Below are positions 17,604-38,172 of a DNA stretch of 64,000 bases, one piece after another. This DNA is from Parabacteroides sp. TM07-1AC (GTDB taxonomy: Bacteria; Bacteroidota; Bacteroidia; Bacteroidales; Tannerellaceae), in NCBI RefSeq assembly GCF_003480915.1, contig NZ_QUKD01000001.1, positions 186,001 to 250,000 of the forward strand, read 5' to 3'. The notes below the pieces were generated by a model. The model saw nothing but the letters and a program-made list of their open reading frames with translations. It was not told the origin of the DNA and did not search any database. Every line of letters begins with the position of its first letter. Positions within the stretch are counted from its first letter, which is position 1. A program made the position numbers and the translations under genes.

Positions 17604-18689
17604 TTATCTCGGTGCTTTCCGATACAGATAAATAGCAATGAATGTATAAAGAATATTCGGAATCCAGGAGGCCACCATCGCACTTACGTATCCGTTGATT
17701 GCGAAAGTAGATGTAACCGTGGTAAACAGAATATAAGAGAAACTTAAAGCCAGTCCGATACCGATATTCAATCCCATGCCCCCTTTGATTTTGCGGGAAG
17801 AAAGTGAGGCTCCGATAGAGGTCAGAATAAACGCAGCCATAATAGAGGCGAAACGTTTGTGATATTCGATTTGGAAAGTCTGTATATTGCCGATGCCACG
17901 TGTTTTCTGTCGGTCGATATATTCTGCTAATTGAGGCGAAGTCATTGTTTCGCAATCGTTTACCGAGATCAGGAAATCGGACGGTATGATTGTCAGAGTC
18001 GTGTCTTTACGTGAACCATGCGTGATATGTTCGCGCATCCCGTCAAAGTCGCGGATCATATAATCGATGACGGTCCATTGGTATAGCGAATCATATTTGA
18101 TCGAGTTGGCTGTCAGTTTTGAGATCAACTTCTTCCCTTCGAAATGTTCCAAAGAGAAACGGTAACCCATATTCGGACGTGCATCGTAACGGTCGAAATA
18201 AGCAATCACACCCGGTTCCACTTCAATCTGTATGTTCCGGGCATATTCCACTTTTTTGTTCCTGATATACTTGTTCTGGAAGTCGATACGTGTACTGTTG
18301 GCGGGAGGAATGATGAAAGCACTCAGTATGAAACTGGCTGTCGCGATAATTGCTGCCGAAATGGCGTAGGGCAACATCAATCGCCGGAAACTCATTCCAC
18401 TTGCCAGCATAGCGATGATCTCGGAATTGTCCGCCAGCTTCGAAGTAAAGAAGATAACTGCGATGAATGTGAACAGCGGACTGAACAGGTTGGCAAAATA
18501 CGGAATGAAGTTCATGTAATAATCCAGGATGATTGCCTGCAAAGGTACATCCGGCTTCAGGAACTTGTCGATCTTTTCGTTTATATCGAATACGACGGAG
18601 ATAGAGATAATCAGAATAATCGCGAAAACATACGTTCCGAGAAATTGCTTGATGATGTACCAGTCTATCCGTTTTAATTTAAAATTCAT
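17604..18689 (-). CDS. LptF/LptG family permease (YjgP/YjgQ)
   Basis: This 361-residue inner-membrane protein has the six-helix layout of LptF/G: an N-terminal pair (WYIIKQFLGTYVFAIILIISIS and a second hydrophobic segment after DYYMNFIPYF), a periplasmic beta-jellyroll domain (about residues 135-270) and C-terminal helices. EYHKRFASIMAAFILTSIGASLSSR is a typical family segment at the end of the periplasmic domain. It moves lipopolysaccharide out of the inner membrane with LptB. Which of LptF or LptG it is cannot be settled here. Its ATG overlaps the tgt stop by one base (TAATG), so it is cotranslated with tgt. Confidence 0.92.
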   Translation of the reverse strand: MNFKLKRIDWYIIKQFLGTYVFAIILIISISVVFDINEKIDKFLKPDVPLQAIILDYYMNFIPYFANLFSPLFTFIAVIFFTSKLADNSEIIAMLASGMSFRRLMLPYAISAAIIATASFILSAFIIPPANSTRIDFQNKYIRNKKVEYARNIQIEVEPGVIAYFDRYDARPNMGYRFSLEHFEGKKLISKLTANSIKYDSLYQWTVIDYMIRDFDGMREHITHGSRKDTTLTIIPSDFLISVNDCETMTSPQLAEYIDRQKTRGIGNIQTFQIEYHKRFASIMAAFILTSIGASLSSRKIKGGMGLNIGIGLALSFSYILFTTVTSTFAINGYVSAMVASWIPNILYTFIAIYLYRKAPR

Positions 18690-19819
18690 TATAATCTATT
18701 GTTTAGTTGCTGTACCATGCCGCTTTTCCAGGTACCGAAGTCGCCGGCAATGATGTGGCGGCGTGCCTCTTTTACCAGCCACAGGTAAAAAGCCAGGTTA
18801 TGGATAGAAGCGATCTGCAGACCCAGCATTTCGTTTGCCTTGATCAGGTGATGCAGATATGCTTTGCTGTAGAGCGTGTCGACTAGCGAATGACCGTCCG
18901 GATCGACAGGGGAGAAGTCGTCTTCCCATTTCTTGTTGCGCAGGTTGATCGTGCCATATTGCGTGAAGATCTGTCCGTTGCGTCCGTTACGGGTCGGCAT
19001 GATACAGTCGAACATATCTATACCACGTTCGATTCCCTCCAGCAGGTTGATCGGCGTACCGACTCCCATCAGGTAACGGGGTTTGTCTTTGGGTAATATT
19101 TCATTGACTACCTCGATCATTTCGTACATCTTCTCCGTCGGTTCGCCGACAGCCAGGCCACCGATGGCGTTTCCGTCAGCGCCTTTCTTTGCCACATTTT
19201 CTGCCGCTTGACGGCGCAGGTCAGGATACACGCAACCTTGTACGATGGGGAAGAGGCATTGCCCGTAGCCATATTTCGGTTCGGTAGAGTTGAAGCGTTC
19301 GAAACAACGGTCCAGCCAACGTTCGGTCAGTCCCAAAGATTTTTTTGCATAATCGTAATCCGCGTCTCCCGGGCAGCATTCATCGAAAGCCATAATGATA
19401 TCGGCACCGATGATGCGTTGGATATCCATTACTTTTTCCGGGGTGAAGAGGTGTTTCGAACCGTCGATATGCGAACGGAATTCGGCTCCTTCCTCATGCA
19501 ATTTGCGATTGTCGGAAAGCGAGAACACCTGGAAACCTCCGCTATCGGTCAGGATAGGCCGGTCCCATGTATTGAATTTGTGCAATCCGCCAGCTTTTTC
19601 CAGGATTTCAAGACCCGGACGCAGGTAAAGATGATAGGTGTTACCGAGGATGATCTGGGCATTGATATCCTCTTTCAACTCGGTCATGTGGACGCCTTTC
19701 ACTGTGCCTTGTGTTCCGACAGGCATAAAAATGGGCGTCTCGATTACCCCGTGATCGGTAGTAATCAAGCCCGCCCTTGCATTTGTTTTAGTATCGTTGT
19801 GTTGTAATTCGAATTTCAT
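18689..19819 (-). CDS. tgt: tRNA-guanine transglycosylase
   Basis: This 376-residue TIM-barrel enzyme swaps guanine-34 for preQ1 in GUN-anticodon tRNAs. Catalytic-face motifs are present: LTDSGGFQVFSL, MAFDECCPG, GGLAVGEP, LMGVGTP and FDCIMPTRNGRNG. Oddly, the zinc site of bacterial Tgt, CxCxxC after a DP pair, reads DPDGHSLVD here, so the three Cys positions are Gly309, Ser311 and Asp314, while the following SKAYLHHL and the His at 340 are kept. The length is normal, and nothing else suggests decay. I recall the same in other Bacteroidetes orthologues but could not check. A -7 element TATCTTTG lies upstream; lptF/G follows. Confidence 0.94.
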   Translation of the reverse strand: MKFELQHNDTKTNARAGLITTDHGVIETPIFMPVGTQGTVKGVHMTELKEDINAQIILGNTYHLYLRPGLEILEKAGGLHKFNTWDRPILTDSGGFQVFSLSDNRKLHEEGAEFRSHIDGSKHLFTPEKVMDIQRIIGADIIMAFDECCPGDADYDYAKKSLGLTERWLDRCFERFNSTEPKYGYGQCLFPIVQGCVYPDLRRQAAENVAKKGADGNAIGGLAVGEPTEKMYEMIEVVNEILPKDKPRYLMGVGTPINLLEGIERGIDMFDCIMPTRNGRNGQIFTQYGTINLRNKKWEDDFSPVDPDGHSLVDTLYSKAYLHHLIKANEMLGLQIASIHNLAFYLWLVKEARRHIIAGDFGTWKSGMVQQLNNRL

Positions 19820-19840
19820 TACTTATCTTCGCTTTGGGCG

Positions 19841-19848
19841 CAAAGATA
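19841..19848 (-). promoter_or_regulatory. -7 promoter element for tgt-lptF/G
   Basis: The minus strand reads TATCTTTG, 21 bases upstream of the tgt start, in the 40-base gap behind the polyferredoxin gene. Confidence 0.6.
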
Positions 19849-19859
19849 GTATTTTTCTA

Positions 19860-21467
19860 TCAGAATCCGAAGTCATCGACTTCTACGTTTTTGACTTCTT
19901 CCTCTTCCGGTAAAACAATGGTCTGATGCACTACATTCGACTTCACGATAATAGCCCGCATCGGACGCACCGGACAGATCGATTCGCATCCGCCACAACC
20001 TACACATAAGTCAGGATTTACCTGCGGAATGGTCAGTGTCCCTTCATAAGGCACCATGTGTACAGCCTGGGTCGGACAGTGTTCGGAGCAGGCTCCGCAG
20101 TCGGTTCCTTCCGTCTTCACAATACACCGGTTGATAAAGAAAGTTGCAATACCCACCTGCAACGATTTCTTTTCTTCCACCGTGATAGGCTGAATAGCCC
20201 CAGCCGGACAAACTTCCGAGCATATCGTACACTCATAATTACAATAACTGCTGATGTAAGCCATACGTGGCTTCAACAGATAATCGAAACCATATTCCAG
20301 TCCGGCAGGACGTAATACTTGGCTCGGACATTTCACGACGCAGATATGGCATCCCGTACATTTGTCTTTGAAACGTTCCAGGCTCAATGATCCGGGAGGG
20401 GTGATGGGCGGCCATTTTTTACGTCCTTTTCTCTTTCCATGACCATTTCCATTTCCGTGTCCTTCGCATTGTTCGACACCTTCCGCGATAGCCGATACGA
20501 TTGGCAGCGTGGCTGCAACAGTTGCTCCGGTTGCCAGGAAAGTACGACGGCTGTTTACTGCCGGTTGCTGTTCCATTTTCATAGCAACTTCAGTAATCGC
20601 TTTCTCTTCTTTCCGGAAAGGAGGGTTGAAACGATATTGCAGACCACCTTTGGAACAAGAAGAAACGCAGTTGAAACAATCCACGCAACGAGAAGTATCG
20701 ACAGTCAGATTCTTGGCGTCGATCGCTTCTGCTTTGCAGGTATGTTCACAGTTTCCGCAATGGGTACAAGCCCCTTTATCGAATGATATACGGAAGAATG
20801 AATAACGTGACACCAGACTAAGCAATGCACCTACCGGGCATAATGAGTTACAAAACAAACGTCCGCGGAAAATAACCAAAACGGCAAAAACAACCAGAGC
20901 CACAATACCGGATACCAGGCCGGCAATACTTACCGTGCTGATCGTTACGTGGAACAATGAATAGTTATCCATTTTCATCAGCCAGTCGGCCAATACATTG
21001 TTCCCCCACATAACAGAAGGGCGGAACAGGTTTGCCGCAATGCGTCCGAAGTTACTATACGGATCGAGCAACAGGCATAAACCGGAGAATCCCAGTAGGG
21101 CAGTTATCGCAGTGGCCGCCAGCAACACATATCGTACCCAGTTCAATGGCTTATGATATTTAAATCGCCGTACTCCTTTTTTCTTCTTTTTCCCTATGCA
21201 GAACAGGCGGTTGATGATATCCTGGAAAACTCCCGCAGGACATAATACTGAACAGTAAATACGTCCGAATACCAATGTCAGGAGAAGCAATACGGCTACA
21301 ATCCCGAACATACCCGCAAGGATAGCCGGCAATAACTGTGCATGCAGTAATCTGTGTACGCCGACCGGCATCTTATTCGTGAAGTCCAGAAAGAAAAGAA
21401 GTATAGGTATAAAAAACAGGGCTGCGAGGAGTACCCGCAGTCCTTTTAAGTAATTAGGTCGCTTCAT
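19860..21467 (-). CDS. Membrane polyferredoxin, NapH-like plus NapG-like halves
   Basis: This 535-residue protein looks like two electron carriers in series. Residues 1-220 are a NapH/CcoG-like membrane part with four or five helices and two CxxxCP motifs (YCSVLCP near 71, FCNSLCP near 206). Residues 234-275 carry two ferredoxin-type clusters (CTHCGNCEHTC, CVDCFNCVSSC). An internal twin-arginine-like segment, SRRTFLATGATVAATLP, follows at 306-322. Residues 350-535 carry further Cys motifs (CTGCHICVVKC, CTICSEVC, CGACSEHC, CVGCGGCESIC). It probably passes electrons between the quinone pool and a periplasmic partner. The DUF362 gene lies one base upstream and is a likely partner. The redox reaction is unknown. 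Confidence 0.85.
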   Translation of the reverse strand: MKRPNYLKGLRVLLAALFFIPILLFFLDFTNKMPVGVHRLLHAQLLPAILAGMFGIVAVLLLLTLVFGRIYCSVLCPAGVFQDIINRLFCIGKKKKKGVRRFKYHKPLNWVRYVLLAATAITALLGFSGLCLLLDPYSNFGRIAANLFRPSVMWGNNVLADWLMKMDNYSLFHVTISTVSIAGLVSGIVALVVFAVLVIFRGRLFCNSLCPVGALLSLVSRYSFFRISFDKGACTHCGNCEHTCKAEAIDAKNLTVDTSRCVDCFNCVSSCSKGGLQYRFNPPFRKEEKAITEVAMKMEQQPAVNSRRTFLATGATVAATLPIVSAIAEGVEQCEGHGNGNGHGKRKGRKKWPPITPPGSLSLERFKDKCTGCHICVVKCPSQVLRPAGLEYGFDYLLKPRMAYISSYCNYECTICSEVCPAGAIQPITVEEKKSLQVGIATFFINRCIVKTEGTDCGACSEHCPTQAVHMVPYEGTLTIPQVNPDLCVGCGGCESICPVRPMRAIIVKSNVVHQTIVLPEEEEVKNVEVDDFGF

Positions 21468-22400
21468 TTATATTTTAATACGTTTGATATTGATTTTCTT
21501 CAAATCCGTTGATCCCAGTTTAAGCTCTTCGCCTTTACCGATATGGCTTACTGCTTCCATGTCCAGTTTCTTTACCTGGTTGAATAAAGCGAGGGCTGCC
21601 GTGTCGATTGCAACGATGTTAGGAGATACGATTATTGATTTCAATGTCGCTACATCGGCTGCACTTTTACCCTGCGGCCCGTTCTGATGCATCATCCGGT
21701 AAGCATCCACGATATTCAGAACCGGTTTCTTTTGCCAGGTACAGATGTCGGCGATACATTGCTGCAAGTCGTTCTGATGGAAGAAACGACGGTCCCATAC
21801 GATCCCCATGTAATTCTTCATGGCACAGGAAAGTTTTGCCCCGCCATGATTCTTCAGGATAGGCACATTGATCCAGGCGTCCGCTTCGATCAGTGCTTCG
21901 TGTATCTTGGCAGACTTTACTTTTACTCCGTTGGGGATGGATACTTCTTTGAAATATTTCTCATCGTTGCCAGGCATGATGATACCTCCGGCTTCTTTTA
22001 CGGCAGCAGCTATACCACTGCTCTCATAACATTTCTGCCAATTATCGCAGGTATGGTCGAAAACAGTTACTTTCTCTGCTCCGGCTGCCAGGCATTTTTT
22101 CACCAATGCTTTGATAAGCTGCGGGTTGGTATTTCCTGCCAGTTCCGGTGTACGGTCCCATCCGATATTCGGTTTGATAACCACTTTTTGCCCTTTCTTG
22201 ATGTAATTACCGATTCCCCCCAGGGTTTCCAATGCTTTATCGAGCATCGCCTCAGGTTCGCCACCCATCACAGCTACCATTTCGGGAGCCTGCTCTACTG
22301 CCATGGTGTTGGTCGACAATGCTGCTTGCAGCCCTTTAAAGTCTATGGATAATGCGGCACCAGCTACTACACTGGTCTTTAAGAAATCACGACGTTTCAT
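21468..22400 (-). CDS. DUF362 protein with Tat-type signal
   Basis: This 310-residue protein opens MKRRDFLKTSVVAGAALSI, a twin-arginine signal that suggests export of a folded, cofactor-bearing protein. The body is DUF362-like: VVIKPNIGWDR, VFDHTCDNW, ILKNHGGAKLSCAMKNYMGIVWDR and NIVDAYRMMHQNGPQG. Such proteins often sit beside ferredoxins and may themselves hold iron-sulfur clusters. It is the first gene of a two-gene unit with the polyferredoxin, separated by no spacer. The reaction is unknown. The -7 element TACCTTTG lies 40 bases upstream. Confidence 0.82.
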   Translation of the reverse strand: MKRRDFLKTSVVAGAALSIDFKGLQAALSTNTMAVEQAPEMVAVMGGEPEAMLDKALETLGGIGNYIKKGQKVVIKPNIGWDRTPELAGNTNPQLIKALVKKCLAAGAEKVTVFDHTCDNWQKCYESSGIAAAVKEAGGIIMPGNDEKYFKEVSIPNGVKVKSAKIHEALIEADAWINVPILKNHGGAKLSCAMKNYMGIVWDRRFFHQNDLQQCIADICTWQKKPVLNIVDAYRMMHQNGPQGKSAADVATLKSIIVSPNIVAIDTAALALFNQVKKLDMEAVSHIGKGEELKLGSTDLKKINIKRIKI

Positions 22401-22439
22401 TTTGTTGTAATTGGTTATTAGAATTGTTTATAGATGTAA

Positions 22440-22476
22440 CAAAGGTAGTAATTCTCTGAATTATAGTGTATCTTTG
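22440..22476. promoter_or_regulatory. Back-to-back promoters for DUF362 and the divergent gene
   Basis: The minus strand has TACCTTTG at 22440-22447, facing the DUF362 gene. The plus strand has TATCTTTG at 22469-22476, facing the gene at 22498. The two -7 elements are only 21 bp apart, so each promoter's upstream region overlaps the other's and they may compete or be coregulated. Confidence 0.6.
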
Positions 22477-22497
22477 CCCGTAAAAAATATTAATTTA

Positions 22498-23295
22498 ATG
22501 GAATTATATGCTTATATATCACTGCATTCCTTTGTCGAAGGATGCGTGGTAACTACCGGGGAACCGGCACTTACTTTACAGGCTGATAATTTATTATATA
22601 CCGTTCCTCAGGAAGAATATCAATATGGATTGTCGCTGCTCCGGAAGGCGATAGGAGAGTATGAAATACAAAAAGGAATTCCGGCAGAAGAGAGTAAACA
22701 GGCTATTCCTTTTTTTCGTGAGAAGCGTCGTATGCTGATCGGGCCGGAAATGGATATTTATAAATTGTCTTTCTATGAAAATGAAACCGAACTCCCGGAA
22801 AAGGTAAAGTCCGCTAAACAACCCTACCTGCGTTTGTCTTTCGATTATGAGCAACAGGCGGAACATTGCCTTTTCGAAAACATGTTCCTGGTTCGTTGTA
22901 AATACGATGAAAGACAGGTACTCGATAACTTTATTACGCAAATGGAGCGTGAATACGATAAGTTCTTTTTCGATGATGAACACAGCGGCTTTACATCCGA
23001 TTCCCGTTTCTTCTCGCTTTTATGTAATGCTTGTCTGGAAGTAAAGGAACCGTCGTGTGCACCGGAAAAAGAATGGCGTTTGGCGGTCCTTCGTAGTCCG
23101 GTCGATGCCGGTTACCGGTATGAGAACGGGCAACTGAGACCTTTCGTTCCCATTTCTTTGCCGCTGAATGTTATCCGTAAAGTCACTTTACTCGACAGTG
23201 AAAAAGAAGAATTGAACTTTAGTGCCCTTGCCGGTTTTATGCAACGCATCGGTTTGTCGCCGGAACGTTACCTGGAAGGATTGCTGGAAGAATAA
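22498..23295 (+). CDS. Conserved-looking protein of unknown function
   Basis: This 265-residue soluble protein is not one I recognise. It has no signal peptide or membrane helix. The C-terminal part (EKEWRLAVLRSPVDAG, FVPISLPLNVIRKVTLLD) faintly resembles DUF2971 proteins, but the N-terminal hallmarks of that family are not seen. The open frame continues upstream to 22411, but the -7 element TATCTTTG at 22469-22476 lies inside that extension, so the ATG at 22498 (MELYAYISLHSF) is the better start. It is transcribed alone and closed by a strong terminator. Confidence 0.75.
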   Translation: MELYAYISLHSFVEGCVVTTGEPALTLQADNLLYTVPQEEYQYGLSLLRKAIGEYEIQKGIPAEESKQAIPFFREKRRMLIGPEMDIYKLSFYENETELPEKVKSAKQPYLRLSFDYEQQAEHCLFENMFLVRCKYDERQVLDNFITQMEREYDKFFFDDEHSGFTSDSRFFSLLCNACLEVKEPSCAPEKEWRLAVLRSPVDAGYRYENGQLRPFVPISLPLNVIRKVTLLDSEKEELNFSALAGFMQRIGLSPERYLEGLLEE

Positions 23296-23324
23296 ATAAT
23301 TCATATTTACATTTTGCTATTTTA

Positions 23325-23374
23325 TCTCCTTAGCCAGTCTTCTGCATGAAGGCTTGGTTAAGGAGATCTTTTTT
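23325..23374 (+). terminator. Intrinsic terminator before the integrase region
   Basis: The arms ctccttagccagtcttc and gaaggcttggttaaggag (23327-23365) pair with few mismatches and are followed by atctttttt. Confidence 0.85.
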
Positions 23375-23599
23375 ATGCGTTTCTCCCGACGTTCAGTAAA
23401 TACAGAAAGATAACCTGAAAGCTGAACTGATAAATTTTTGTTCTTATCAGCTGATGACCTGCCAGGTAATTAAAGAACCTGTTAGCCTTTACCACTGAAA
23501 GACAAACATATTGTCATTATATATTGAGTCCTGTTTTTTCTCATTGTAGAGATAAAAAGGGAAGATTTCGATCCGTTTTCTTACCCGAAGAGACCATTT

Positions 23600-23780
23600 C
23601 CTGCTTTTACCTGCCGGTGTATTCCCGTCACCCGGCAGGTAATTTTATTTATCTGCCGGGTAAATCACTGTCAGCTGCCGGGAAAAATAAATTATGAGCC
23701 GGGTGAAGAGAACTATGACCGTGCAAAAAAGGTTTATAGGGGAAGAAATGGGAGCGGAACAGGGTGAAATTACCCTGAAA
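23600..23780. repeat. Cluster of CTGCCGGG-type hairpins upstream of the integrase
   Basis: The pair acccggcag/ctgccgggt (23630-23661) forms a hairpin with a 14-base AT-rich loop. Further copies of ctgccgg lie near 23611 and 23674, a partial one (gccggg) at 23698, and a separate palindrome cagggt/accctg at 23760-23777. The whole gap 23375-23890 contains no gene I trust. The cluster may be recombinase binding sites, decayed element ends or transcript structure. Confidence 0.65.
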
Positions 23781-23827
23781 GCGTTCTCCATGGAAAAAGT
23801 GATGTTACAAATAATGGAATAAAATGA

Positions 23828-23835
23828 TATATTTG
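23828..23835 (+). promoter_or_regulatory. -7 promoter element for the integrase gene
   Basis: The plus strand reads TATATTTG, 55 bases before the integrase ATG at 23891. Confidence 0.55.
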
Positions 23836-23890
23836 ATTTTAATTCCTGTAAAAGTATAACATTTTGATTTACTAATATAAACAATCATGT

Positions 23891-24874
23891 ATGGAAATAA
23901 CAAAAGAAAACAATCAGAAGAAAAAAGGGCTTTTTCTGCATGAATATGTCGGTCGACGGGCAGAAAGCAAGCGACTGATGGGAAAAGACAGTACGGCTGA
24001 TCTTTATCAGGCGGCCGGTCATCATTTCTTTGTCTTCTTGGGAAACAGAGATATTCGGGTCTGTGACGTAACGGCGACTCAGGTGAACGATTTTCAGGCT
24101 TACTTGCAGGCAAAAGGATTAAAGATCAATACGATCAACAGCTACCTGAGCAGTCTCCGGGCGATATACAATGCTGCTTTCGACGACAAACCGTTTAAAA
24201 GAAAACTGCATCCGTTCCACAAACTGAGACTGAAACGCGATATGACAGTCAAAAAGCCATTGTCGGACCAGCAGGTGAAAAAGATGGCGACAGCCGATTT
24301 TCGTGACCGTCCCGATCTGACCCTGGCAACGGATCTGGCACTCTTCAGCTTTATGGCGTATGGCATGCCTTTCGTAGACATGGTGCACTTGACGCGGAAG
24401 AATATCCATGGACAGGCTATCGTGTACAACCGGCATAAGACCGGTATAGAGATACGTGTCGAGATCACTTCCGGCATGTGGCAGATGATCCGTAAATATG
24501 AATCATCGGGCAGCGATTACCTTTTCCCTGTGATGTTTGCTTCGGCTACTCACCGTCAGTACAAGTCCATGCTGTCTGCTCATAACGAAACGTTGAAACA
24601 GGTGGGTCAGCTATTAGGTATTCATAATAACCTTACCTCGTATGTGATGCGTTATACCTGGGCCTCCGAAGCCCGTCGGCTGCATGTGGATATCGCCGTG
24701 ATCAGCCAGGCATTAGGGCATACGAACGAAAAAACGACGCGTGGCTACTTCAACCGACTCGACCAGCCTGAACTCGATCAGGCGAATCAAAAGATAACGA
24801 GCCCGATTTGTAAAATACTGTCGGATAAGCAGAAACGCATAAATTGGCGGGGAATTGAAGGAACTTATTTATGA
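23891..24874 (+). CDS. Tyrosine recombinase, probable DNA invertase of the fimbrial switch
   Basis: This 327-residue site-specific recombinase has a SAM-like N-terminal DNA-binding domain (about 15-110) and a catalytic domain (125-300). Catalytic positions: Lys183, Arg254 in SYVMRYTWAS, His277 in LGHTNEKTT, and the nucleophile Tyr286 in RGYFNRLD. The usual first Arg, expected in an RGM-F-VDM context, is Tyr157 here (AYGMPFVDM); this may mark a subfamily or shift of the catalytic residue. The last codons and stop lie inside the left inverted repeat (24861-24880), so inversion leaves its C-terminus unchanged. Position and repeats make it the likely invertase of the adjacent promoter segment. 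It is not part of a larger integrative element that I can see. Confidence 0.9.
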   Translation: MEITKENNQKKKGLFLHEYVGRRAESKRLMGKDSTADLYQAAGHHFFVFLGNRDIRVCDVTATQVNDFQAYLQAKGLKINTINSYLSSLRAIYNAAFDDKPFKRKLHPFHKLRLKRDMTVKKPLSDQQVKKMATADFRDRPDLTLATDLALFSFMAYGMPFVDMVHLTRKNIHGQAIVYNRHKTGIEIRVEITSGMWQMIRKYESSGSDYLFPVMFASATHRQYKSMLSAHNETLKQVGQLLGIHNNLTSYVMRYTWASEARRLHVDIAVISQALGHTNEKTTRGYFNRLDQPELDQANQKITSPICKILSDKQKRINWRGIEGTYL

Positions 24875-24880
24875 AATAAG
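24861..24880. repeat. Left arm (L1) of the invertible segment
   Basis: The 20-base sequence gaacttatttatgaaataag is the exact reverse complement of 25281-25300. Its core CTTATTTATGAAATAAG (24864-24880) is itself a dyad with a central ATG, the form expected of a tyrosine recombinase crossover site. It overlaps the integrase stop codon (TGA at 24872-24874). Confidence 0.92.
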
Positions 24881-24886
24881 GGGTAG

Positions 24887-24903
24887 CTTATTTATGAAAT
24901 AAG
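24887..24903. repeat. Second, direct copy (L2) of the recombination-site core
   Basis: The core CTTATTTATGAAATAAG is repeated exactly 23 bp to the right of L1 in the same orientation. It could act as an alternative crossover partner for the right arm, or allow a 23-bp deletion with L1. Confidence 0.85.
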
Positions 24904-24968
24904 AACAATTACGAAATGAACATTGATTCTTATTCGCTTTTGTCTTAATACCTAATACTAGATGTCCA

Positions 24969-24976
24969 CAAAGGTA
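24969..24976 (-). promoter_or_regulatory. -7 promoter element inside the invertible segment
   Basis: The minus strand reads TACCTTTG, an exact fit to TAnnTTTG. The sequence about 20 bases upstream is T-rich but lacks a clear TTTG -33 element. As given, it fires towards the integrase 3' end. Confidence 0.7.
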
Positions 24977-25280
24977 AGAAGATTAGAAAAAATAAAGAAA
25001 AAATCATCGTACTTTTTATGTGTATAGGTAATAAAGAAAATCTGGTATTAGCGTTTTGTCTGTAATTTACAATTTTTTAGCCGGTAATAGCTTGTTTATA
25101 TTGAATTTGATAAAATGAGAATATAATCGGTCATCCCTTCTTGTGTTTTAACAGCTGTTATGTGAAAGTAACAGTGGATTTATACTCTTTTAAACACAAT
25201 TGAAAGATAAAATAAAAGAAAAACTATCCTATTGTCTTTCAGTCTTTCTTTCTCGGTGTGGCTTTTTCGGGCTGATAAAA

Positions 25281-25300
25281 CTTATTTCATAAATAAGTTC
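25281..25300. repeat. Right arm (R) of the invertible segment
   Basis: The sequence cttatttcataaataagttc is the exact reverse complement of 24861-24880. The core spans 25281-25297 and has a central CAT, that is, the opposite orientation to L1 and L2. It ends 22 bases before the HU-like start codon. Confidence 0.92.
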
Positions 25301-25322
25301 AAACAAAACAACACACATTAGT

Positions 25323-25616
25323 ATGAATAAAAGAACCCTTGAATCCAAAGTGTCCGCGAAATTGGGGATCCCTCAATACAAAGTGAACCTGTTCATCAAT
25401 ACGTTACTGGACTCCATAACGGAATCCCTGGAACAGAACGAAGAAGTCTCTATCCGTGGCTTTGGAACATTCCTGCCTAAAAGGCAAAAAACACGTCCCG
25501 TCCGCAATCCCCAAAATGGAGAACCCTGCATGCTGGAGCCTTCCGTCACCGTCAAATTCAGCGTAGGCAGCGACCTGAAAAAACGGCTGAATGAAGACAG
25601 CCATATCCAAAAGTAA
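25323..25616 (+). CDS. HU-family DNA-binding protein, first gene of the switched operon
   Basis: This 97-residue protein has the HU/IHF fold: a helical N-terminus (ESKVSAKLGIPQYKVNLFINTLLDSITESL), the signature VSIRGFGTFLPKRQK and an arm around RPVRNPQNGEP. The arm keeps the Arg-Asn-Pro turn that kinks DNA. Its start is 22 bases after the right recombination arm, so it is the first gene read when the switch is ON. It may be a nucleoid protein that affects inversion or the operon, but that is inference. The next gene follows after 30 bases. Confidence 0.9.
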   Translation: MNKRTLESKVSAKLGIPQYKVNLFINTLLDSITESLEQNEEVSIRGFGTFLPKRQKTRPVRNPQNGEPCMLEPSVTVKFSVGSDLKKRLNEDSHIQK

Positions 25617-25645
25617 ACAAGAATAATAACCAATAAAACAGCCAT

Positions 25646-26236
25646 ATGAAAAAGAATTTCCTTTTGCTGATTTTCAGCCTCCTGACCATTGGTCTTTCTG
25701 CACAAAACGAACTGTCGGAAAGCAAGGGTTCGGTTGCCGGTATCAAAACCAACCTTCCCTATTGGGGTACGGCTACATTTAACCTGGGTGCCGAAGTTCG
25801 CCTTGCCCGTCACTGGAGCCTGGAAGCGGAAGTCGGCCTGAATCCGTTCGACGGAAAGGAGAACGACGGCAGCTACGGCAAGTCCCTGAAACATCTGCGC
25901 GTTCATCCCGAACTGCGTTACTGGTTCTGCGAAACCTTCTACAAACATTTTATCGGACTGCATGTACCATACCTGTTGTACAACGTATCGGACATCAAGC
26001 TCCTGGGAACGGAGAACGAACGTCACCAGGGTTGGGGAGCCGGTGTGGGTATCAGCTACGGGTATTCCTGGATCCTTTCCAAGCACTGGAATATGGAAGC
26101 GACCGTCGGTGTGGGTTATCTCTACCTCGAATCGGATAAGTATCCCTGCACCAACTGCGGCAGCAAGATCGAGACCGTCAAGAAACATTATTTCGGTCCC
26201 ACCCAAGCGGCTGTCAGTCTGATTTATCAATTCTAA
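25646..26236 (+). CDS. Outer-membrane beta-barrel protein, DUF3575 family
   Basis: This 196-residue protein has a cleavable signal peptide (MKKNFLLLIFSLLTIGLSAQ) and a series of amphipathic strands ending in Phe (SLIYQF), as outer-membrane barrels do. Features of DUF3575 are GIKTNLPYWGTATFNLGAEV, WSLEAEVGLNPF and the Cys pair CTNC near residue 170. These proteins are regularly encoded next to DUF3868 and Mfa-type fimbrial genes in Bacteroidales. A role in fimbrial assembly or anchoring is likely but unproven. Confidence 0.85.
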   Translation: MKKNFLLLIFSLLTIGLSAQNELSESKGSVAGIKTNLPYWGTATFNLGAEVRLARHWSLEAEVGLNPFDGKENDGSYGKSLKHLRVHPELRYWFCETFYKHFIGLHVPYLLYNVSDIKLLGTENERHQGWGAGVGISYGYSWILSKHWNMEATVGVGYLYLESDKYPCTNCGSKIETVKKHYFGPTQAAVSLIYQF

Positions 26237-26249
26237 AATCTGAAAACGT

Positions 26250-27683
26250 ATGAAAAAGAAAGAGATAACCATTATAACCGCCGGTCTGTTGCTCTCTGCT
26301 CTGACTGCCGGTGCACAGGAGATTAAGATCAAAGACAAGATAGTAGAAAAGGCCGACACTTCACTGGTGATCGGCATGACGTTCGACCTCGACAGCCTTG
26401 AAGTGCGGGGCGACCGCAGTATCGTCTGTACGCCGGTGATCGTCCGCGACGACAGCATACGACCACTCACTCCGGTGATCATCAATGGCCGCAGCCGTCA
26501 TATATTATATGAACGTACCGGCCGTAATCTTATAGAAAACAAGGAAATCGAGTTGCGCCGCCGCAACGGTGAGGAGCAGAAGGTGGACTATCAGACCCGC
26601 ACTCCGTTTGCCAAATGGATGGAAAAGTCGGAAGTCGCCCTTATCACCGATGAATGCGGTTGCGGGTGGGACTCCTTGCAAAGCACCCGTTCCCCGTTGT
26701 TCGCCATCAACCTGGCTGAACCCATTGTCCTGAAACCCTTCCTTTGCTATCAAACGCCAAAAGTCGAAGCAGTAAAAGCCAGGGCGAAAGAGGGAAGCGC
26801 TTTTCTCGATTTCCCGGTGAATAAGACAACCATTTATCCGGATTATCGCAATAACCCTCAGGAGTTGAGAGCGATACGGGAGACTGTCGAGTCGGTACGT
26901 AACGATAAGTATGCCACTATCACCGAAGTATATATCAAAGGCTATGCCTCTCCCGAAGGTAGTTATTCCAACAATGCCTACCTGGCAGAAAACCGTGCCA
27001 AGGCATTGCGCGATTACGTAAAAGGCCTGTATCATTTCGACCGGGCGGCATTTACGGTCGACTTCGAACCGGAAGACTGGGCAGGGCTGGAGAAACGGCT
27101 GGAAACGATGTCGTTGCCGGACAAGGCAGAACTGCTTGCCATCATCCGCGCCGACGAACCTTCTGATTTGGATAAAAAGGAATGGAAGCTCAAGACACTG
27201 AATGGCGGAACTTCTTATAAAACATTGCTTAGTGAGGTTTATCCTGCTCTTCGTCATTCTGACTATGCGGTGAAATATACGATCCGCAACTTCACGGTCG
27301 AAGAGGCGAAAGAACTGCTCTATACTGATCCGAAGCAACTGAGTTTAAGTGAAATGTTCCAGGTAGCGCAAACCTACGAACCGGGCAGCCGGCAGTATAG
27401 CGAGGTGTTCGAAATCGCCGTTCGCATGTATCCGGACGACTCTGTTTCCAATCTGAACGCCGCTAACACGGCCATCAGTAACAAGCAATTGGCCCAGGCG
27501 AAGCGCTATCTGAATAAGACAACCGATTCTTCGGAGAAACAGTTGGCCCTTGCCTCCATCGCCATGCTGGAAGGCAATTTGGATCAGGCAGAACAGTTGC
27601 TTAATTCATTGAAAGGTAAATCCGACGTATCGGAAGCTGTCGATAAGAATCTGGAACAGATTCGTCTTAAACGGGAAGAATAA
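26250..27683 (+). CDS. DUF3868 / OmpA-like fimbrial accessory protein
   Basis: This 477-residue exported protein has a signal peptide ending near AGAQ, an N-terminal DUF3868-type domain (about 20-160), and an OmpA-like segment (ITEVYIKGYASPEG..., AENRAKALRDYV, about 225-260) that could bind peptidoglycan. The last 130 residues form TPR-like helices (SEMFQVAQTY, NLNAANTAISNKQLAQAKRYL). It is found with the DUF3575 barrel in Mfa-type loci, and the pair may couple fimbriae to the cell envelope. The gap to the previous gene is 13 bases. Confidence 0.85.
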   Translation: MKKKEITIITAGLLLSALTAGAQEIKIKDKIVEKADTSLVIGMTFDLDSLEVRGDRSIVCTPVIVRDDSIRPLTPVIINGRSRHILYERTGRNLIENKEIELRRRNGEEQKVDYQTRTPFAKWMEKSEVALITDECGCGWDSLQSTRSPLFAINLAEPIVLKPFLCYQTPKVEAVKARAKEGSAFLDFPVNKTTIYPDYRNNPQELRAIRETVESVRNDKYATITEVYIKGYASPEGSYSNNAYLAENRAKALRDYVKGLYHFDRAAFTVDFEPEDWAGLEKRLETMSLPDKAELLAIIRADEPSDLDKKEWKLKTLNGGTSYKTLLSEVYPALRHSDYAVKYTIRNFTVEEAKELLYTDPKQLSLSEMFQVAQTYEPGSRQYSEVFEIAVRMYPDDSVSNLNAANTAISNKQLAQAKRYLNKTTDSSEKQLALASIAMLEGNLDQAEQLLNSLKGKSDVSEAVDKNLEQIRLKREE

Positions 27684-27743
27684 TTAACTGTAAATGTGAC
27701 AAAACGGAGTTTTGACACACCGCTACGACATAAACGATAAATT

Positions 27744-29648
27744 ATGGATCATAAATATAAACTATCATCCTTGCTGGCCGCCTGCCTGTTGCTCACTTCC
27801 TGCTCCGACGAAATCCGGATAGGGCAGGGAGATGACGAGAATGGGAGAGGGGACTACGAAACCTATCTTCAACTGACTGTCCGTTGCCCCGAAGCAACAG
27901 GAGGCAGTCTGCCAACCCGTTCGAACCCCACCGGCGGCGAGAACGGCGACGGCCATGAACCCGGCCAGGCCTACGAGACGCATATCGACGACCTGCTGCT
28001 GCTTTTCTACCAGGGCGACAACAAAGCCAATTCTCCGGCCTCGACGCCGATCGACAAGATCATGTACTTCAGCCGCGATAACTTTAACGAAGAGGACAAC
28101 CGGTTGAACCCCGTCAAAGTCGGTCTCCCCGGCGGGGAATACGACCTGTTGGTCATTACTAACACCGGCGACCTTCGCCCTCAATTACAGGGCAAGACGT
28201 TGGGCAGTATCCGCGACTACCTGCAAAAACGTGCCTGGACGGAGAAGGAGGGCAAATACTCCCGCTTTGTCATGTCGTCCAATGGCCATACCAACGACCG
28301 TGTTACGCTTTGCGGCGATAATACGGCCACGAACCCCGCCTGTGCCACTGTCGAAGTGGAACGCCATGCCGCCCGCATCGACTACCGTACGGCCTACGAC
28401 ATCTATGACGTGACCGACGAGAAGTTCGGCAAAGCGCAGGTCTCCATCACCGGCGCCATGTTGATCAACAACCTCAGTGCCGGCAGCTATATGCTGAAAC
28501 GCGTACAGGCAGCCGATGCCGCCACCGGCGAATACGGCAATGCCTCGACTACGGAATACCTGGGTTTGGAACTGCCTGAGTTCGGCGACCATCAGATCAA
28601 CTATGTAATCGATCCGTGGAGCTATCTAAAGACAACAGCCAACGTGAACAGGAAAGTGTTCAACCCGGATGCACCGGGTGCGGGAAGCCGGCCGCTTCGC
28701 AACCTGTACGAAAACTACCTGACTGCCTACGGCACTTCGACGGCCAACTGGAAATTCCCGGCCGGCTTGGGCGAGCGCGTCGGAGACTGGTATCGTATCG
28801 GCTATACACTGGAGAACACCGTTTCGAAAGCCAATCAGAGCCGTTTTATCAATATGGGTGTTGTATTTAAGGCGCATTATACGCCTGGCAAATGGTGGGT
28901 ATATGATCCGGCAACCAAAAAGATAGTCGAAACCGCTTCATCCGACGGTAAGCCGTTTACCTTCTTCTCCTTTGGCGGTAAATTGTACGGAACGCCTGAA
29001 GCCGCCATGTTGGCGTACGCTCCAAGCGGAACCGACCTGTTTAGTTATTCTTTTTCCGGCAAAACCTGGGCGGACGTTCAGACATTGGCGGGAAAGATCA
29101 AGGAAGGCGATCCGGTCGGCTACAGGAAGCATCTGCTCCGCTCATTGGGAGGCAAGACGCTGACAGCCACGTTGACAACCTCGGAAGCTGCTTCTCTCAG
29201 CTGGTCTTCCTATATGAAGACAACTTACGGTTACAGCTTGGAGAACGGCAAACCGGTCATTAATCAGAACGGCAAGGATACCCGCCGGCTATTGGCTTTC
29301 TACGGTCTGCATACGTATGCGGACGGTGTCTGCTATTATCCTTGGTGGATCCGCCACTCGAACAACAACGCTTCGACAAAGGGAATTATGGAATACGCTA
29401 TCGTGCGCAACAACATTTATAAGTTGCGTATCAGCGACATCTACGGCCTGGGGTATGACATTCCGTATGAACCACCGTTCGATCCGGAAGAGCCGATTAA
29501 GCCTCCGGTGGATACGGAAGACCCGGAAGATCCCGATAAACCTGGCCCTGGTCCTGGTCCAGATCCCGACCCTACCCCTAAACTATTAAATATAAAGGTG
29601 ACCGTAGTCAATTGGATCAAACTGGATCCGGAATATGTCTATCTGTAA
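27744..29648 (+). CDS. Mfa1-like major fimbrillin
   Basis: This 634-residue lipoprotein has a lipobox LLTSC near residue 21 and a candidate processing site at LPTRSN near residue 58, where an Arg-type protease could free the strand-acceptor groove. The C-terminal part shows the Mfa1 pattern: LLAFYGLHTYADGVCYYPWW, IMEYAIVRNNIYKLRISDIY and a Pro-rich linker (PGPGPGPDPDP) before the last strand NIKVTVVNWIKL. By analogy with Porphyromonas Mfa1, it would polymerise by strand exchange into the fimbrial shaft. It is longer than Mfa1 (about 560) because of the Pro-rich tail. The gap to the previous gene is 60 bases. Confidence 0.85.
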   Translation: MDHKYKLSSLLAACLLLTSCSDEIRIGQGDDENGRGDYETYLQLTVRCPEATGGSLPTRSNPTGGENGDGHEPGQAYETHIDDLLLLFYQGDNKANSPASTPIDKIMYFSRDNFNEEDNRLNPVKVGLPGGEYDLLVITNTGDLRPQLQGKTLGSIRDYLQKRAWTEKEGKYSRFVMSSNGHTNDRVTLCGDNTATNPACATVEVERHAARIDYRTAYDIYDVTDEKFGKAQVSITGAMLINNLSAGSYMLKRVQAADAATGEYGNASTTEYLGLELPEFGDHQINYVIDPWSYLKTTANVNRKVFNPDAPGAGSRPLRNLYENYLTAYGTSTANWKFPAGLGERVGDWYRIGYTLENTVSKANQSRFINMGVVFKAHYTPGKWWVYDPATKKIVETASSDGKPFTFFSFGGKLYGTPEAAMLAYAPSGTDLFSYSFSGKTWADVQTLAGKIKEGDPVGYRKHLLRSLGGKTLTATLTTSEAASLSWSSYMKTTYGYSLENGKPVINQNGKDTRRLLAFYGLHTYADGVCYYPWWIRHSNNNASTKGIMEYAIVRNNIYKLRISDIYGLGYDIPYEPPFDPEEPIKPPVDTEDPEDPDKPGPGPGPDPDPTPKLLNIKVTVVNWIKLDPEYVYL

Positions 29649-29680
29649 ACAAACTGAAAACGAATCAAATAAAGCATAGA

Positions 29681-30700
29681 ATGAAAACATATATAAAGAA
29701 CCAACCAGCCGGAATAGGCGTATGGATGATAGCCAGCCTGTTCTTTTTACTCGGTTTCGCTTCGTGCGATTATATCCACGACGACCTGCCGCTGTGTAAG
29801 CATACGCTTAGTTTTGTCTACACCCATAATATGAAGTTTGCCGACGCTTTCGCCCACGAGATGGAATGCCAGGAGCGAGCCAAACAGGTCGAACTTTATA
29901 TCTACGACAAAGAGGGCACCTTCCTCTCGTCGTGCACCATCGCCGGTGAGGAGCTGAAGGCCAACCGCATCGAACTCGACCTACAGCCGGGCACCTACCG
30001 CCTGCTTGCCTGGGCGGGACTGAACGAGCAGGATTATACCTGGAACGCCCCGAAGGCCGACAGCCAACTGTCCGATTTCCGCCTGACCGTCAAACAGGAG
30101 CAACAGACCGTCGACCGTGAACTGCTCGGCCTCTTCCAGGGTCAGCTGACGCTCGAAATCCCCGAAGGCGGCGAAACGCATACCGACTTCCCGTTGGTCA
30201 AGAACACCAACAAACTGCGCTTCATCCTGATCGACGCCAACCCGGGAACGTCTCTCAACGCCGACGACTTCCAGATCCGGGCGACCACTACCAACGGCGA
30301 CCTCGACGCCGCCAACCAGCCGGTAGCCGACACCCGTCTCACCTGGCTTCCTTATTATAAAGGCATCAAGCAAATCGCTTCTGCCACCGGTACGACCACC
30401 TATCCGGCCGTTTGTGCCGAACTGAACACACTCCGTCTGATCAAAGGCGGCAAAGGAACCCTGCATCTGCGCTACAGCCAAGAGACAACCGACTTCCTGG
30501 CGGTAGACCTTGCCGACTTCCTCTGCCTGACGCAGATGGAATCGCATCAGCTGGACGCACAAGAATATCTCGACCGCCAGGACGAATACGTAGTCACCAT
30601 CTACATCGACACCACCGGCGGCAAGGCCCATTGCCTGGAAGTGATCGTGAACGACTGGGTGATCCGCCTGGATGACACCAACTTAAAGGAGGAGATTTAA
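29681..30700 (+). CDS. Mfa2/FimB-like fimbrial anchor subunit
   Basis: This 339-residue lipoprotein (lipobox GFASC) carries the start CDYIHDDLPLCKHTLSFVY, diagnostic of the FimB/Mfa2 family, which anchors the fimbria in the outer membrane and limits its length. The two transthyretin-like domains follow (AKQVELYIYD..., LRFILIDAN..., TIYIDTTGGKAHCLEVIVNDW). The start ATG at 29681 is chosen over the longer frame from 29612, which overlaps the upstream gene. Base composition is clearly more GC-rich than in the two genes that follow. It ends 3 bases before the next gene. Confidence 0.85.
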   Translation: MKTYIKNQPAGIGVWMIASLFFLLGFASCDYIHDDLPLCKHTLSFVYTHNMKFADAFAHEMECQERAKQVELYIYDKEGTFLSSCTIAGEELKANRIELDLQPGTYRLLAWAGLNEQDYTWNAPKADSQLSDFRLTVKQEQQTVDRELLGLFQGQLTLEIPEGGETHTDFPLVKNTNKLRFILIDANPGTSLNADDFQIRATTTNGDLDAANQPVADTRLTWLPYYKGIKQIASATGTTTYPAVCAELNTLRLIKGGKGTLHLRYSQETTDFLAVDLADFLCLTQMESHQLDAQEYLDRQDEYVVTIYIDTTGGKAHCLEVIVNDWVIRLDDTNLKEEI

Positions 30701-30703
30701 ACC

Positions 30704-32020
30704 ATGAGACGAAACAAACTGAATACCCGACTGGCCGGCTGCCTCTTGTTGTTGCTGGCCTTCCTTTCCGCCTGCTCCCACGAAGAAGGCCCGACCCCTT
30801 CGCCCGATTCCGGCTTGGTCACCCTCTCGCTGCAAGTGAAAACAAGTGAACTTCCGGCAACGAAAGGCGAGGGAGAGGATACGGAAGCATTAAAGAATGA
30901 ATACATCCATTCGTTAATCGTTTTATTGGCTAAGGATGAAACTATTGTAGAAAGGTGGGATGTAAAAGAGGGAAAGGGGGCTTCAAGAGAGACCTGGGCT
31001 TCTGACCAAATCTCCTTGGAAACAGGCAGCTATGTTGCGTATGCCTTTGCCAATATGGAAAGCCTGCCGGATGAAGGGGGGAGTTTTCTTAACACATTGA
31101 CGGAGACTCAGTCTATCAGCGATTTGGAAACGAAAGTAGTAACGATGTTCAATGGTACTAACTCTTATAATCCGGAAACAGGAACTTACCTTCCCATGAG
31201 CCGCCGTTATCCTTTTAACTTAACAGAGAATACGACAGTAACCATCCCCTTGGTAAGAATGCTCAGTCGGGTAGAAGTATCCGTAGAAAGGGATGGAGAA
31301 AGACAAGAACCCATTTCAAATTTCTCCTTCTCCGGCTTTGTGGATAAGATGAACTTGTTTGTTGATCCGTATGAGTTAAACGATGTAATGGAGTATAATG
31401 AAGATGGAAAGTTAAAGACTCCGGTAGATGCTAGTATGGTTACAGATGGATATAAAAAAAATGGGACGTGGAATGGAGATCCTTTCTATTTCTACGTCAG
31501 CGAAACAATAGGTGACTTCAAAATTAATTTAAACTTGGATGACACTCCAATCGGCGAGCGTACACTCACTCGAACCGTCCTAGTCCGCAACCGTATCTGG
31601 CCGATTCATCTGATTATAAAAGATACGCAATGCAAATTCAAATTTGAAGCTTATAACCAGCCCATCGGAGGAGCACCGGAGTACATCAAACCTATTACGG
31701 ACGAACAGAACAACTACAACCTTCCTGTCAAAGGTGGAGGAAACTTTACGTTGACATTGGAAGGGGTTTATCCGACTGGGGCATCTAGTAATGAACTAAC
31801 CATTACTGGGTGGGAAATTGAAGACTGGGAGTCTGTTAAAAACAGTATTTATTCAAAAAGTGAGGGGAAAAGTGAGGGCTCTCCACTTAAAATAGCAGGT
31901 CGCATACCATCTAAAGCGAAAGATATACCAATGACAGTCGTTGCAACAGAGGAGAATGGAAAAAAACATACATTCACCTTCAACCTAAGTGCAACAGATC
32001 TCTTTGAATTAAACCAATAA
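30704..32020 (+). CDS. Minor fimbrillin / tip-type lipoprotein
   Basis: This 438-residue lipoprotein (lipobox FLSAC) has fimbrillin features: an early strand LVTLSLQVKTSE, an Arg-type processing context (ATKGEGE), PLVRMLSRVEVSV, and the late motif TVLVRNRIWPIHLIIKD. It is likely an accessory subunit near the tip. From about 30850 the codon use turns AT-rich in contrast to the first 150 bp, suggesting that most of the chain was replaced by recombination. The exact position in the fimbria is inferred from gene order (after Mfa2-like). Confidence 0.78.
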   Translation: MRRNKLNTRLAGCLLLLLAFLSACSHEEGPTPSPDSGLVTLSLQVKTSELPATKGEGEDTEALKNEYIHSLIVLLAKDETIVERWDVKEGKGASRETWASDQISLETGSYVAYAFANMESLPDEGGSFLNTLTETQSISDLETKVVTMFNGTNSYNPETGTYLPMSRRYPFNLTENTTVTIPLVRMLSRVEVSVERDGERQEPISNFSFSGFVDKMNLFVDPYELNDVMEYNEDGKLKTPVDASMVTDGYKKNGTWNGDPFYFYVSETIGDFKINLNLDDTPIGERTLTRTVLVRNRIWPIHLIIKDTQCKFKFEAYNQPIGGAPEYIKPITDEQNNYNLPVKGGGNFTLTLEGVYPTGASSNELTITGWEIEDWESVKNSIYSKSEGKSEGSPLKIAGRIPSKAKDIPMTVVATEENGKKHTFTFNLSATDLFELNQ

Positions 32021-32024
32021 CAAG

Positions 32025-35000
32025 ATGAAACATACAAGAATACATATAAATAAAAAAGCCCGCAGCCTGTTCCTGCTTTTAGGAATGCTGGCTGTGACGG
32101 TGTGGGGATATGGGAAGGACTCGGGAACTCTGAGTACTGACCATGTTACGCCTTTTGATTTAGCGTTTAATAATTTAAGAAATGAAGGTGACCCTTCTTC
32201 TAAAAATAAGTACCAAGGCTTTGTCCACGAAAAAGAAGAAATCATCTATTTGGCTCCCGGAGATAGGGTAATGGTTGAGTTATGTGGCACAGGAGGTGCA
32301 CAGATAGACGATTATGTAAGATGGTACGTAGACCCTAATGCAACATATTTAAAAGATATAAAAGAGTATATGGATGTATATAGTCCTGTGAATAAAATCT
32401 TGGGAAATAAAGGTGAAGATGCAATGTTATCACCTAAGAAGGATAGTAAAAGTGGATATGACACTCAGTCTAGGTATCTTTATTATAAAGAAGAAGACAA
32501 GGACGAATTTGTTACAGGATATTTGCATCATACAGGGAGTTCTAATCCACAACTTCGTTATGTATATTTAAAAGCACCGAAAAAGTTTGAATCTGATGAA
32601 TATGTTATCTACTGTGATCTTGGTAAAACTCTAAAATGGAATGAACATCTACATGATGAACTAACCGCCGGAACATACATAGCTAACCGAATCAATTTAC
32701 GGCGCAAATATATTATTAGACCTGCTAAAAAGATGGCAGATGCTATACAAAAATATAATAAAGGTGAAGATTTAGGAGAAGAAGCCTCCTTTTTCGGCAA
32801 ATACGAGATTCATGCACCAATAGAAGCCAATTATATAACTTTGCGATTGCCTCACGCATTGAGTAATTATTATACAGGTTCTGGAACGGCTTTGAAAAAA
32901 CCTGAATACTTGTATTGGAGCTTTTACAAAAATGGCGAAGAGACTCCAGTTTATCAAGTTAAAACGGAGTATGAGAATGGGTATACTGATGGAGGAGGAG
33001 TAACATCTGAATGGAAGCAATGGGATGGACTAATTAAATTAGGTAGTCACAATGTCCATCTCCGTGCCCATGTCCTTGACGTGGCAATGAATATGCTGAA
33101 AATAGAAGATAAGACAACCCGACAGACATATACTGTTGTAGCTGCATTGGGAGATGAAAATAAGGCAGATACTGAAAAAGAGATAGTCACCATCACTCTG
33201 AATTTAGAGCCGAATTATAAGGCACTGACTGAAAAAGACTTTACGACAGCAAACAACCTTTATCAATTCCGTTCGGAAGAAATCTTGGAAAAATATTACA
33301 AATCCTTGGGGAATATTTCTTTTAATAATAATGAACAAGGAAAAGGAGAAGGATATAATGGGGAAAAAATAGTTGATAACCAAAGAAACTGTATACTCGA
33401 AAAATCAACACCATTAACGAATAAGAATAATATGGGTGTCGTACCTTTGCAACAAAACTATTCTAATTATGGGTTTGGAGCTCTTGCGAATAACAATACT
33501 AATAACAATGATATTAACCTAAGCGTATCAGGGTCTTACCAGCCCGGTCGTGGAGAATATGCCTTTATGCGGTCTATAGGGGTAGATGGTATTAATGGTA
33601 ATGGGCAGTCTCTGAAAGACGAGGTAATGGTGGATAACAATGGCCCTTGGTATCATTTTACACCAAGCGAGGATGATACTTGGGGGCGTTCTCCCTTCTA
33701 TGTTTACGACCGACGTTATCAAGTTCTTAAAGAGCACGGCTTCTTCATGTATGTCGATGCCGATGAATCCCCAGACTTGATTACCTTATTGCCGATAGAC
33801 AACGCGGATATTACGTTGTGTAATGAAACACAAATTGTAGTGACTGCTTGGGTGTGTAATTTGAATAGATCCTCAAGTACGAAAAAAAGATTGATATCTG
33901 TGTCTGAGATTAAAGAAACACCTCATCAAGTCGATGGAAAGATTGAGGACGGAGAGGGTTCTATCCAATATCCCAAAGTAGCCGGAACAGACCTTGGCTT
34001 TACTTTCAAAGCTTTAAACCAGGATACTAACCAGGAAGAAATCATCTACAAATATTATAGTGGAGAGATTGAAAATAATGTGCGAACGGCTGATCCAAAT
34101 GATGCACAATATAATAATAATAAAGGAGCCATACCAGCCGAATGGCAACAAATCTACATGTCATTCACTATCCCCAGTAAGAATTACACGAATTACAAAC
34201 TCGAAGTAGCCAGCAACTGTCTGCATACCGATGGGGGCGACTTTGCCATCGACGATATCCGGGTGTATATGTCGCAGCCCCAAGTGAACTCCGTTCAGGA
34301 AAACCTGTGTGATGAAACATCTAGTCTTCTTATCAAGGCCAACTACGATCTGTTGCTGAATAATATTGGTTTGAATGAACAAAAGATGAATTTATCTGAG
34401 AGTGAGAAGATTCCTACTTGGTCACAACAGTCTTGGGAGTTAACAGCAGATGGAGACCACGGTGGCGATCCCCGCCATTATCACATGTATTATACGGTTG
34501 CTCAAAAGTATACACCTACTGAGCAAGATAACAAAACAGATAACGGATTCATCTCTGCCGATCAGAAAGGCTGGGTCGTGAAATATGGTGAGGACTATTG
34601 GAGATATTTGTTTTTAAATTATAATAACGAAGATAATTATGCTCCAAATGGTGCTGAAGATGCCTTTGGAACGGCTATCATTTCTGTGAATAAGTGGGAT
34701 ATACCAACATTTGAAGAGGTAGAAAAGGTTAAAAAAGAGATGGAGGATCGGAAGCTACAATTAGAAGATACAGAGATAGCTAAAAAGCTACGAACCCACG
34801 AACTCGCTTGGCTCGATACCGAAAATGATCAATACGTTGTTTTAGGTAAGTTAGCTATCGACTATGGTATTTTAACAGCAGGACACGAGTATTATATCCA
34901 ACTCTTTCCGCATTTTATGACAGGAGTTGAGCGCCCCATGCCATCCGACAAATGTGCCATCTCCAATAAATTTAAAGTGGAAAAGTCGCATACGATTTAT

Positions 35001-37979: not shown

Positions 37980-38006
37980 CCCCTCTACATCTCTGAATAT
38001 TAGAAA

Positions 38007-38048
38007 AAGCTGTGTTCTACTCTAATGGACACGGCTTCTTTTGTTTTT
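38007..38048 (+). terminator. Intrinsic terminator of the fimbrial operon
   Basis: The arms aagctgtgt and acacggctt (38008-38036) pair around tctactctaatgg, followed by a T-rich tail. Confidence 0.8.
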
Positions 38049-38172
38049 TACTACAAACACGCTTATTTTTCCATTGTAGAAAGCCACATCGATCGTATGA
38101 AGGTTCCGACAATCCGTACCTGTCAGCCAGGGCAGGCAAGGGAATTTATCCTTGCCAGTAAATAATAAAGAT

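Follow-up and report, generated by a model that had tools for sequence, protein, structure and literature searches.

In Bacteroides fragilis, Weinacht et al. in 2004 reportedly described switches of outer surface proteins that are operated by tyrosine recombinases (Tsr). The consulted part of a review describes tyrosine recombinases that invert surface-protein regions in this species, and a phase-variable locus with a match to a fimbrial protein (PMC12632263). In Parabacteroides distasonis, invertible capsule (CPS) promoters carry a 17-bp repeat with a 6 + 5 + 6 layout, GCTACTYRGNRAGTAGC, behind an integrase (PMC12118408, in excerpt), and the genome of this species holds numerous inversion sites (PMC5903667, in excerpt). 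The Mpi system of B. fragilis likewise acts on invertible regions of surface loci (excerpts of PMC5903667 and PMC12632263), but it consists of one serine recombinase for many loci (PMC5903667). In Escherichia coli, the recombinases FimB and FimE invert fimS, a short element (314 bp according to an abstract) controlling fimbriae, and recombinase expression depends on the orientation of the element, as stated in the excerpted text of PMC3911127.

The window analyzed here (the whole 64-kb stretch of DNA, from a Parabacteroides near P. faecis) carries a tyrosine recombinase gene, a segment between inverted repeats and a fimbrial operon, in that order; we consider it very probable that the segment is an ON/OFF promoter switch of the operon, inverted by the adjacent recombinase. 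The locus resembles the B. fragilis Tsr switches, as they are portrayed in the available excerpts, in pairing a tyrosine recombinase with an invertible region controlling a surface locus, but belongs to a different genus and is likened to them by description, not by repeat sequence. In contrast to Mpi, the enzyme adjacent to the segment is of the tyrosine type, and a tyrosine recombinase lies beside each switch examined here. The E. coli fim system, to which the locus is likened without direct sequence comparison, differs in having two recombinases. Moreover, the fimbriae and the promoter type of fim are unrelated to those of the window switch. From the P. distasonis CPS switches the locus differs in its site letters and in what it controls, namely fimbriae here versus capsule operons with a NusG-type first gene; the consulted part of that source makes no mention of a second tandem site, whereas the window has one (PMC12118408). 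Subject searches by topic rather than by motif letters, within the open-licence literature and with subscription papers outside their scope, returned no description of the CTTATTnnnnnAATAAG motif or of the fimbrial switch. An initial sequence-only reading had noted that invertible promoters of surface loci are established in Bacteroides. The kind, tyrosine-recombinase invertible promoters of Bacteroidales, is known; the Parabacteroides fimbrial switch is a new addition to it.

Two perfect 20-bp arms, at 24861-24880 (plus strand) and 25281-25300 (minus strand), lie 400 nt apart, as the sequence-only reading had proposed. They form the longest perfect inverted repeat in the window (spacing 80-1500) and exceed the chance level obtained from 100 simulated first-order Markov windows, in which the longest repeat per window averaged 13.1 bp and reached at most 16 bp. 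The arms share a 17-mer core, CTTATTTATGAAATAAG, with a 7-bp palindrome around ATG, and this core occurs three times in the window: site 1 (24864-24880, within the outer left arm) and site 2 (24887-24903, plus strand) run in the same direction across a 6-bp linker (GGGTAG), and site 3 (25281-25297, within the right arm) runs in the opposite direction. Site 2, a direct copy of site 1 that the earlier reading had missed while describing the outer pair correctly, pairs with the same right arm as the outer site. The core invertible segment (24904-25280) comprises 377 bp with 71% AT, and no open reading frame of at least 80 aa is listed between the left and right sites. An Rfam scan of the window gave zero matches at gathering scores.

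Exactly one match to TAnnTTTG, the Bacteroidota-type -7 box, is present in the 377-bp core (TACCTTTG, 24969-24976, minus strand); it faces the recombinase gene and stands 65 bases away from the inner left site. The putative -33 element is weak (TTTC, 20 nt upstream), and the promoter call is a sequence match only; this sole full match points leftward, as noted before, so that the operon would be OFF as given. The first gene starts only 22 bases after the right arm, and the operon's own promoter must therefore lie in or beyond the segment.

Beyond the segment, seven co-oriented reading frames (25323-37979, plus strand, with gaps of -37 to 60 bases) make up the Mfa-type fimbrial operon that had been recognized at the outset. 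In order, they encode an HU/IHF-family DNA-binding protein (25323-25616; PF00216), a DUF3575 protein (25646-26236; PF12099, E 7.9e-67), a DUF3868 protein with a weak OmpA match (26250-27683; PF12984), an Mfa1-family fimbria major subunit (27744-29648; NF038041 above cut-off, PF15495), an Mfa2 anchor protein (29612-30700; PF08842, E 1.3e-54, start codon as mechanically listed), a FimA-like pilin that is possibly a tip or accessory protein (30704-32020; PF06321 barely above cut-off, with a weak FimD-tip match below cut-off) and a protein of 1984 aa (32025-37979). The stalk pilin, the Mfa2 anchor and the further pilin, found in one gene run (NF038041, PF08842, PF06321), place the operon with type V (Mfa/FimA-type) fimbriae. 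In domain searches the 1984-aa protein, a candidate surface adhesin, matched no Pfam family at E 0.001, and its C-terminus gave weak matches, below cut-offs, to type IX secretion sorting domains. An HU-HIG protein (PF18291) is encoded shortly after the operon, at 38815-39369.

The recombinase was searched for in 38 genus genomes, 25 of which contributed a total of 73 matches at E 1e-50. The resulting survey set of 61 loci combines 59 of the 73 matched regions with the window and a P. faecis JCM 18682 locus (L001); the 14 regions left out were mostly weaker matches or fragments, one of them (G001:C53, L002) a close relative. In the wider family, at least 19 of 123 genomes match the recombinase at E 1e-70, and these 19 all fall within the genus set (G001-G038). 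In 52 of the 61 loci, an inverted pair of at least 15 bp begins no more than 60 bases from the recombinase stop. Because choosing perfect repeats favors matching arms, we also used an arms-only search (CTTATT, any five bases, AATAAG; no selection on repeats), which found a pair of CTTATTnnnnnAATAAG sites next to the stop codon of the recombinase gene in 52 of 61 loci, window included. Two loci distinguish the two sets of 52: L090, where the pair has other letters and no site matching CTTATT-nnnnn-AATAAG was found, and L072, where the sites lie farther from the stop. In every one of the 52 two-site loci from the arms-only search, the left and right centers are identical; the loci have 15 kinds of center between them, and matches would be expected in 0.15 of cases if centers were dealt at random. 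Strand exchange across the center requires such matching.

Among the other loci, L060, L067, L097 and L105 have a left site only, with the contig end beyond it, and neither the site motif nor an inverted pair was found at L068, L095, L107 and L109. In L002 (64 bases), L060, L067 (97 bases), L097 and L105, the draft contig stops between 64 and 149 bases after the recombinase stop codon, as would happen if assembly were broken by repeats or by mixed orientations. Tandem second sites recur in L051, L052, L055, L059, L064, L066, L067, L069 and L070, on the left, the right or both sides, with differing linkers of 6-17 bp. Regarding the genes served, a blastp cluster identified as DUF3575 (by Pfam on one member, L073) occurs among the first six downstream reading frames in 30 of 52 loci, to which the window is added by Pfam, and eight loci have a common first gene, a glycosyltransferase of family 4 in the scanned member (L087). 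Judging from these gene contents, the same switch type seems to serve fimbriae often and glycan loci too. A group with segments of about 375 bp (L073 and relatives) was considered as capsule loci and set aside, as Pfam in L073 returned DUF3575 and fimbrillin-like proteins.

The probable invertase of the window (23891-24874, plus strand; PF13102 and PF00589) is a tyrosine recombinase of 327 aa with 98% identity to the P. faecis JCM 18682 protein of L001. Its TGA stop codon lies inside the left arm, within the first site, and all 327 codons are unchanged after inversion in silico, in agreement with the earlier claim that inversion would spare the C-terminus. Catalytic columns were placed via alignment to XerD, whose catalytic residue identities, underlying our column labels, we take to be those commonly assigned. 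Across the 61 loci, K183, R254 and H277 do not vary, nor does an additional R181, and the putative nucleophile column (Tyr286) holds Tyr in 60 of 61. The first catalytic Arg of the RKHRH-Y set (Box I position) is absent from all 61, its column showing P, A, T or S; in 61/61, Tyr stands where the first histidine would be. By analogy, the downstream R181 may replace the missing first Arg, as in the CTnDOT integrase, for which the consulted part of the source describes a missing first arginine substituted by a downstream one (PMC8138268). Loci with this atypical residue set have inverted, so that the set is no argument against activity. Four of the 61 recombinases (L071, L085, L088 and L103) contain internal stops with intact repeat pairs beside them; three of these loci are OFF and one is not callable, and they are possibly locked switches.

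Inversion was observed directly among relatives. In four pairs of homologous loci (L059/L066, L061/L062, L064/L065 and L078/L082), both flanks align in the plus orientation and the segment in the minus orientation; the L059/L066 inversion occurs within one genome, and the L064/L065 flanks have 96% identity. The switch family inverts in nature, and we infer that the window's own segment does so too. The sequence-only reading, which had proposed the switch and recommended a comparison of sister assemblies, is thus supported by the four inverted pairs and by the matched centers in 52/52 loci, but the two close relatives, P. faecis L001 (95%) and L051 of genome G038 (97%), carry the segment in the window's own orientation. 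One and the same doublet is found on one side in L067 and on the other in L069 (50/50 bp as reverse-complement). We rejected this exchange of sides as proof of the use of all three sites, because the L067 contig breaks off soon after the recombinase gene and both sides of L064 bear doublets; loss of one copy would also fit.

A search with the segment DNA across the 38 genus genomes gave one full match, in G038. This genome aligns to window positions 17604-27584 at 93% and resumes from 38116; the stretch between (27584-38116, pilin genes and the 1984-aa gene) had no blastn match at E 1e-20 to L113/L114 of G038. As G038 is collinear on both sides with the pilin stretch unmatched, the switch is conserved and the structural genes differ. 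In P. faecis, a 366-aa protein (L001, 6408-7508) follows the right arm in place of the window's HU gene; it has several helix-turn-helix matches, the best to sigma-70 region 4, and the first genes of L059, L063, L066 and L070 belong to the same blastp cluster. Homology between the window and L001 is limited at 23247 on the left and at 25309 on the right, 12 bases beyond the right site. Cross-locus exchange at the sites was considered as the cause of L001's different operon and rejected, as the breaks are not at a site. Within viral contigs, neither the recombinase protein nor one internal segment pattern found a match, and a search of a plasmid collection gave none, so these sources added no strain copies of the segment.

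Taken as a switch, the locus would work as follows. The recombinase would bind the half-palindromic 17-bp sites (CTTATT-nnnnn-AATAAG) and exchange strands in the site center, for which both sites must have the same center. In the given orientation the promoter would fire leftward and enter the recombinase gene at its 3′ end, leaving the operon OFF. If site 3 recombined with one or other of the left sites, the promoter would be turned toward the HU gene; in silico, the box then lies 107 bases before its ATG for the inner site and 130 for the outer arms, the latter being the distance of about 130 bases anticipated by the initial reading.

Other readings of the same DNA have to be weighed. The operon may possibly be transcribed by read-through from the recombinase promoter, a view consistent with plus-strand terminator-like matches in 23300-38900 lying inside the operon; the total of terminator-like matches, 17, is not above the 15.1 found in shuffles. 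The repeats could alternatively be relics of a fixed or decayed switch, such that the window copy no longer inverts; the shared orientation in the window, L001 and L051 would agree with this, as would the internal stops in 4/61 recombinases, but the window recombinase is intact with its active-site columns conserved, the arms are perfect, and decay would erode the matching centers found in all 52 loci, which together make this reading improbable. It is more improbable still, to the point of being hardly credible, that the inverted repeats are a transcription terminator or mobile-element attachment sites. As RNA, the two left sites in tandem are able to fold (z -3.84), and the enzyme belongs to an integrase-type recombinase family, yet no intrinsic terminator was called at these sites, the left and right sites are inverted rather than direct with no reading frame of the size given above listed between them, and the four naturally inverted pairs in relatives contradict such a role for the switch family.

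With the preferred reading of a promoter switch, orientation can be called across the family from the position of the box. A TAnnTTTG box pointing outward, 40-95 bases from the recombinase-side arm, is present in 37 of 52 segments, window included, compared to a shuffle level with a mean of 2.1 and a maximum of 7 (300 shuffles); actual distances are 41-85 bases, and the 40-95 base rule was chosen after the positions were seen. An operon-side box occurs in 2 of 52 segments (L064 and L082), a number not above the shuffle level, and these two loci are independently inverted relative to L065 and L078; a callable box by the same rule is missing in 13 of 52. Callable loci thus divide into 37 OFF and 2 ON (39 of the 52; binomial P-value 2.8e-9, uncorrected for kinship). 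Grouping the segments by similarity gave 22 clusters, 13 of them callable, with 11 all-OFF, 2 mixed and 0 all-ON. By genome, the regions fetched were OFF in 12/12 cases for G010 and in 6/6 for G001, and the 11 of G038 comprised 9 OFF and 2 not callable; all orientation counts are single snapshots of assembled genomes. That most callable loci are OFF, their promoters facing the recombinase gene, is unexpected.

This bias could be explained if the OFF-state promoter also yielded antisense RNA into the recombinase mRNA and so stabilized OFF, with the ON state dropping the antisense and favoring flip-back. We regard such an OFF-biased switch as a tentative and rather unlikely reading. Beyond the counts above, including those by cluster and by genome, it is consistent with the position of the box close to the recombinase-side arm, with the lack of any called terminator-like site on the minus strand from 23300 to 24960, and with a precedent in E. 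coli, where fimS orientation controls fimE expression (PMC3911127, in excerpt). On the other side, growth conditions or selection could give an equal bias in assemblies that record one snapshot each, and the distance rule was fixed with the positions in view. Bolder and doubtful is the proposal that recombinase-linked switches genus-wide rest OFF by design, the promoter serving as an antisense brake on its own recombinase, and that in copies like the window's the tandem second site would create four arrangements instead of two, including two ON forms whose leaders would differ in length by 23 nt.

The 37:2 bias raises the question of how surface-fimbria expression is kept rare. If it is true that the promoter represses its own recombinase, this would be a parallel, in a very distant phylum, to the orientational control of fimE. 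Overall, these loci give Parabacteroides a defined family of mainly fimbrial switches, whose clear site motif, CTTATTnnnnnAATAAG, is searchable in any genome or metagenome.
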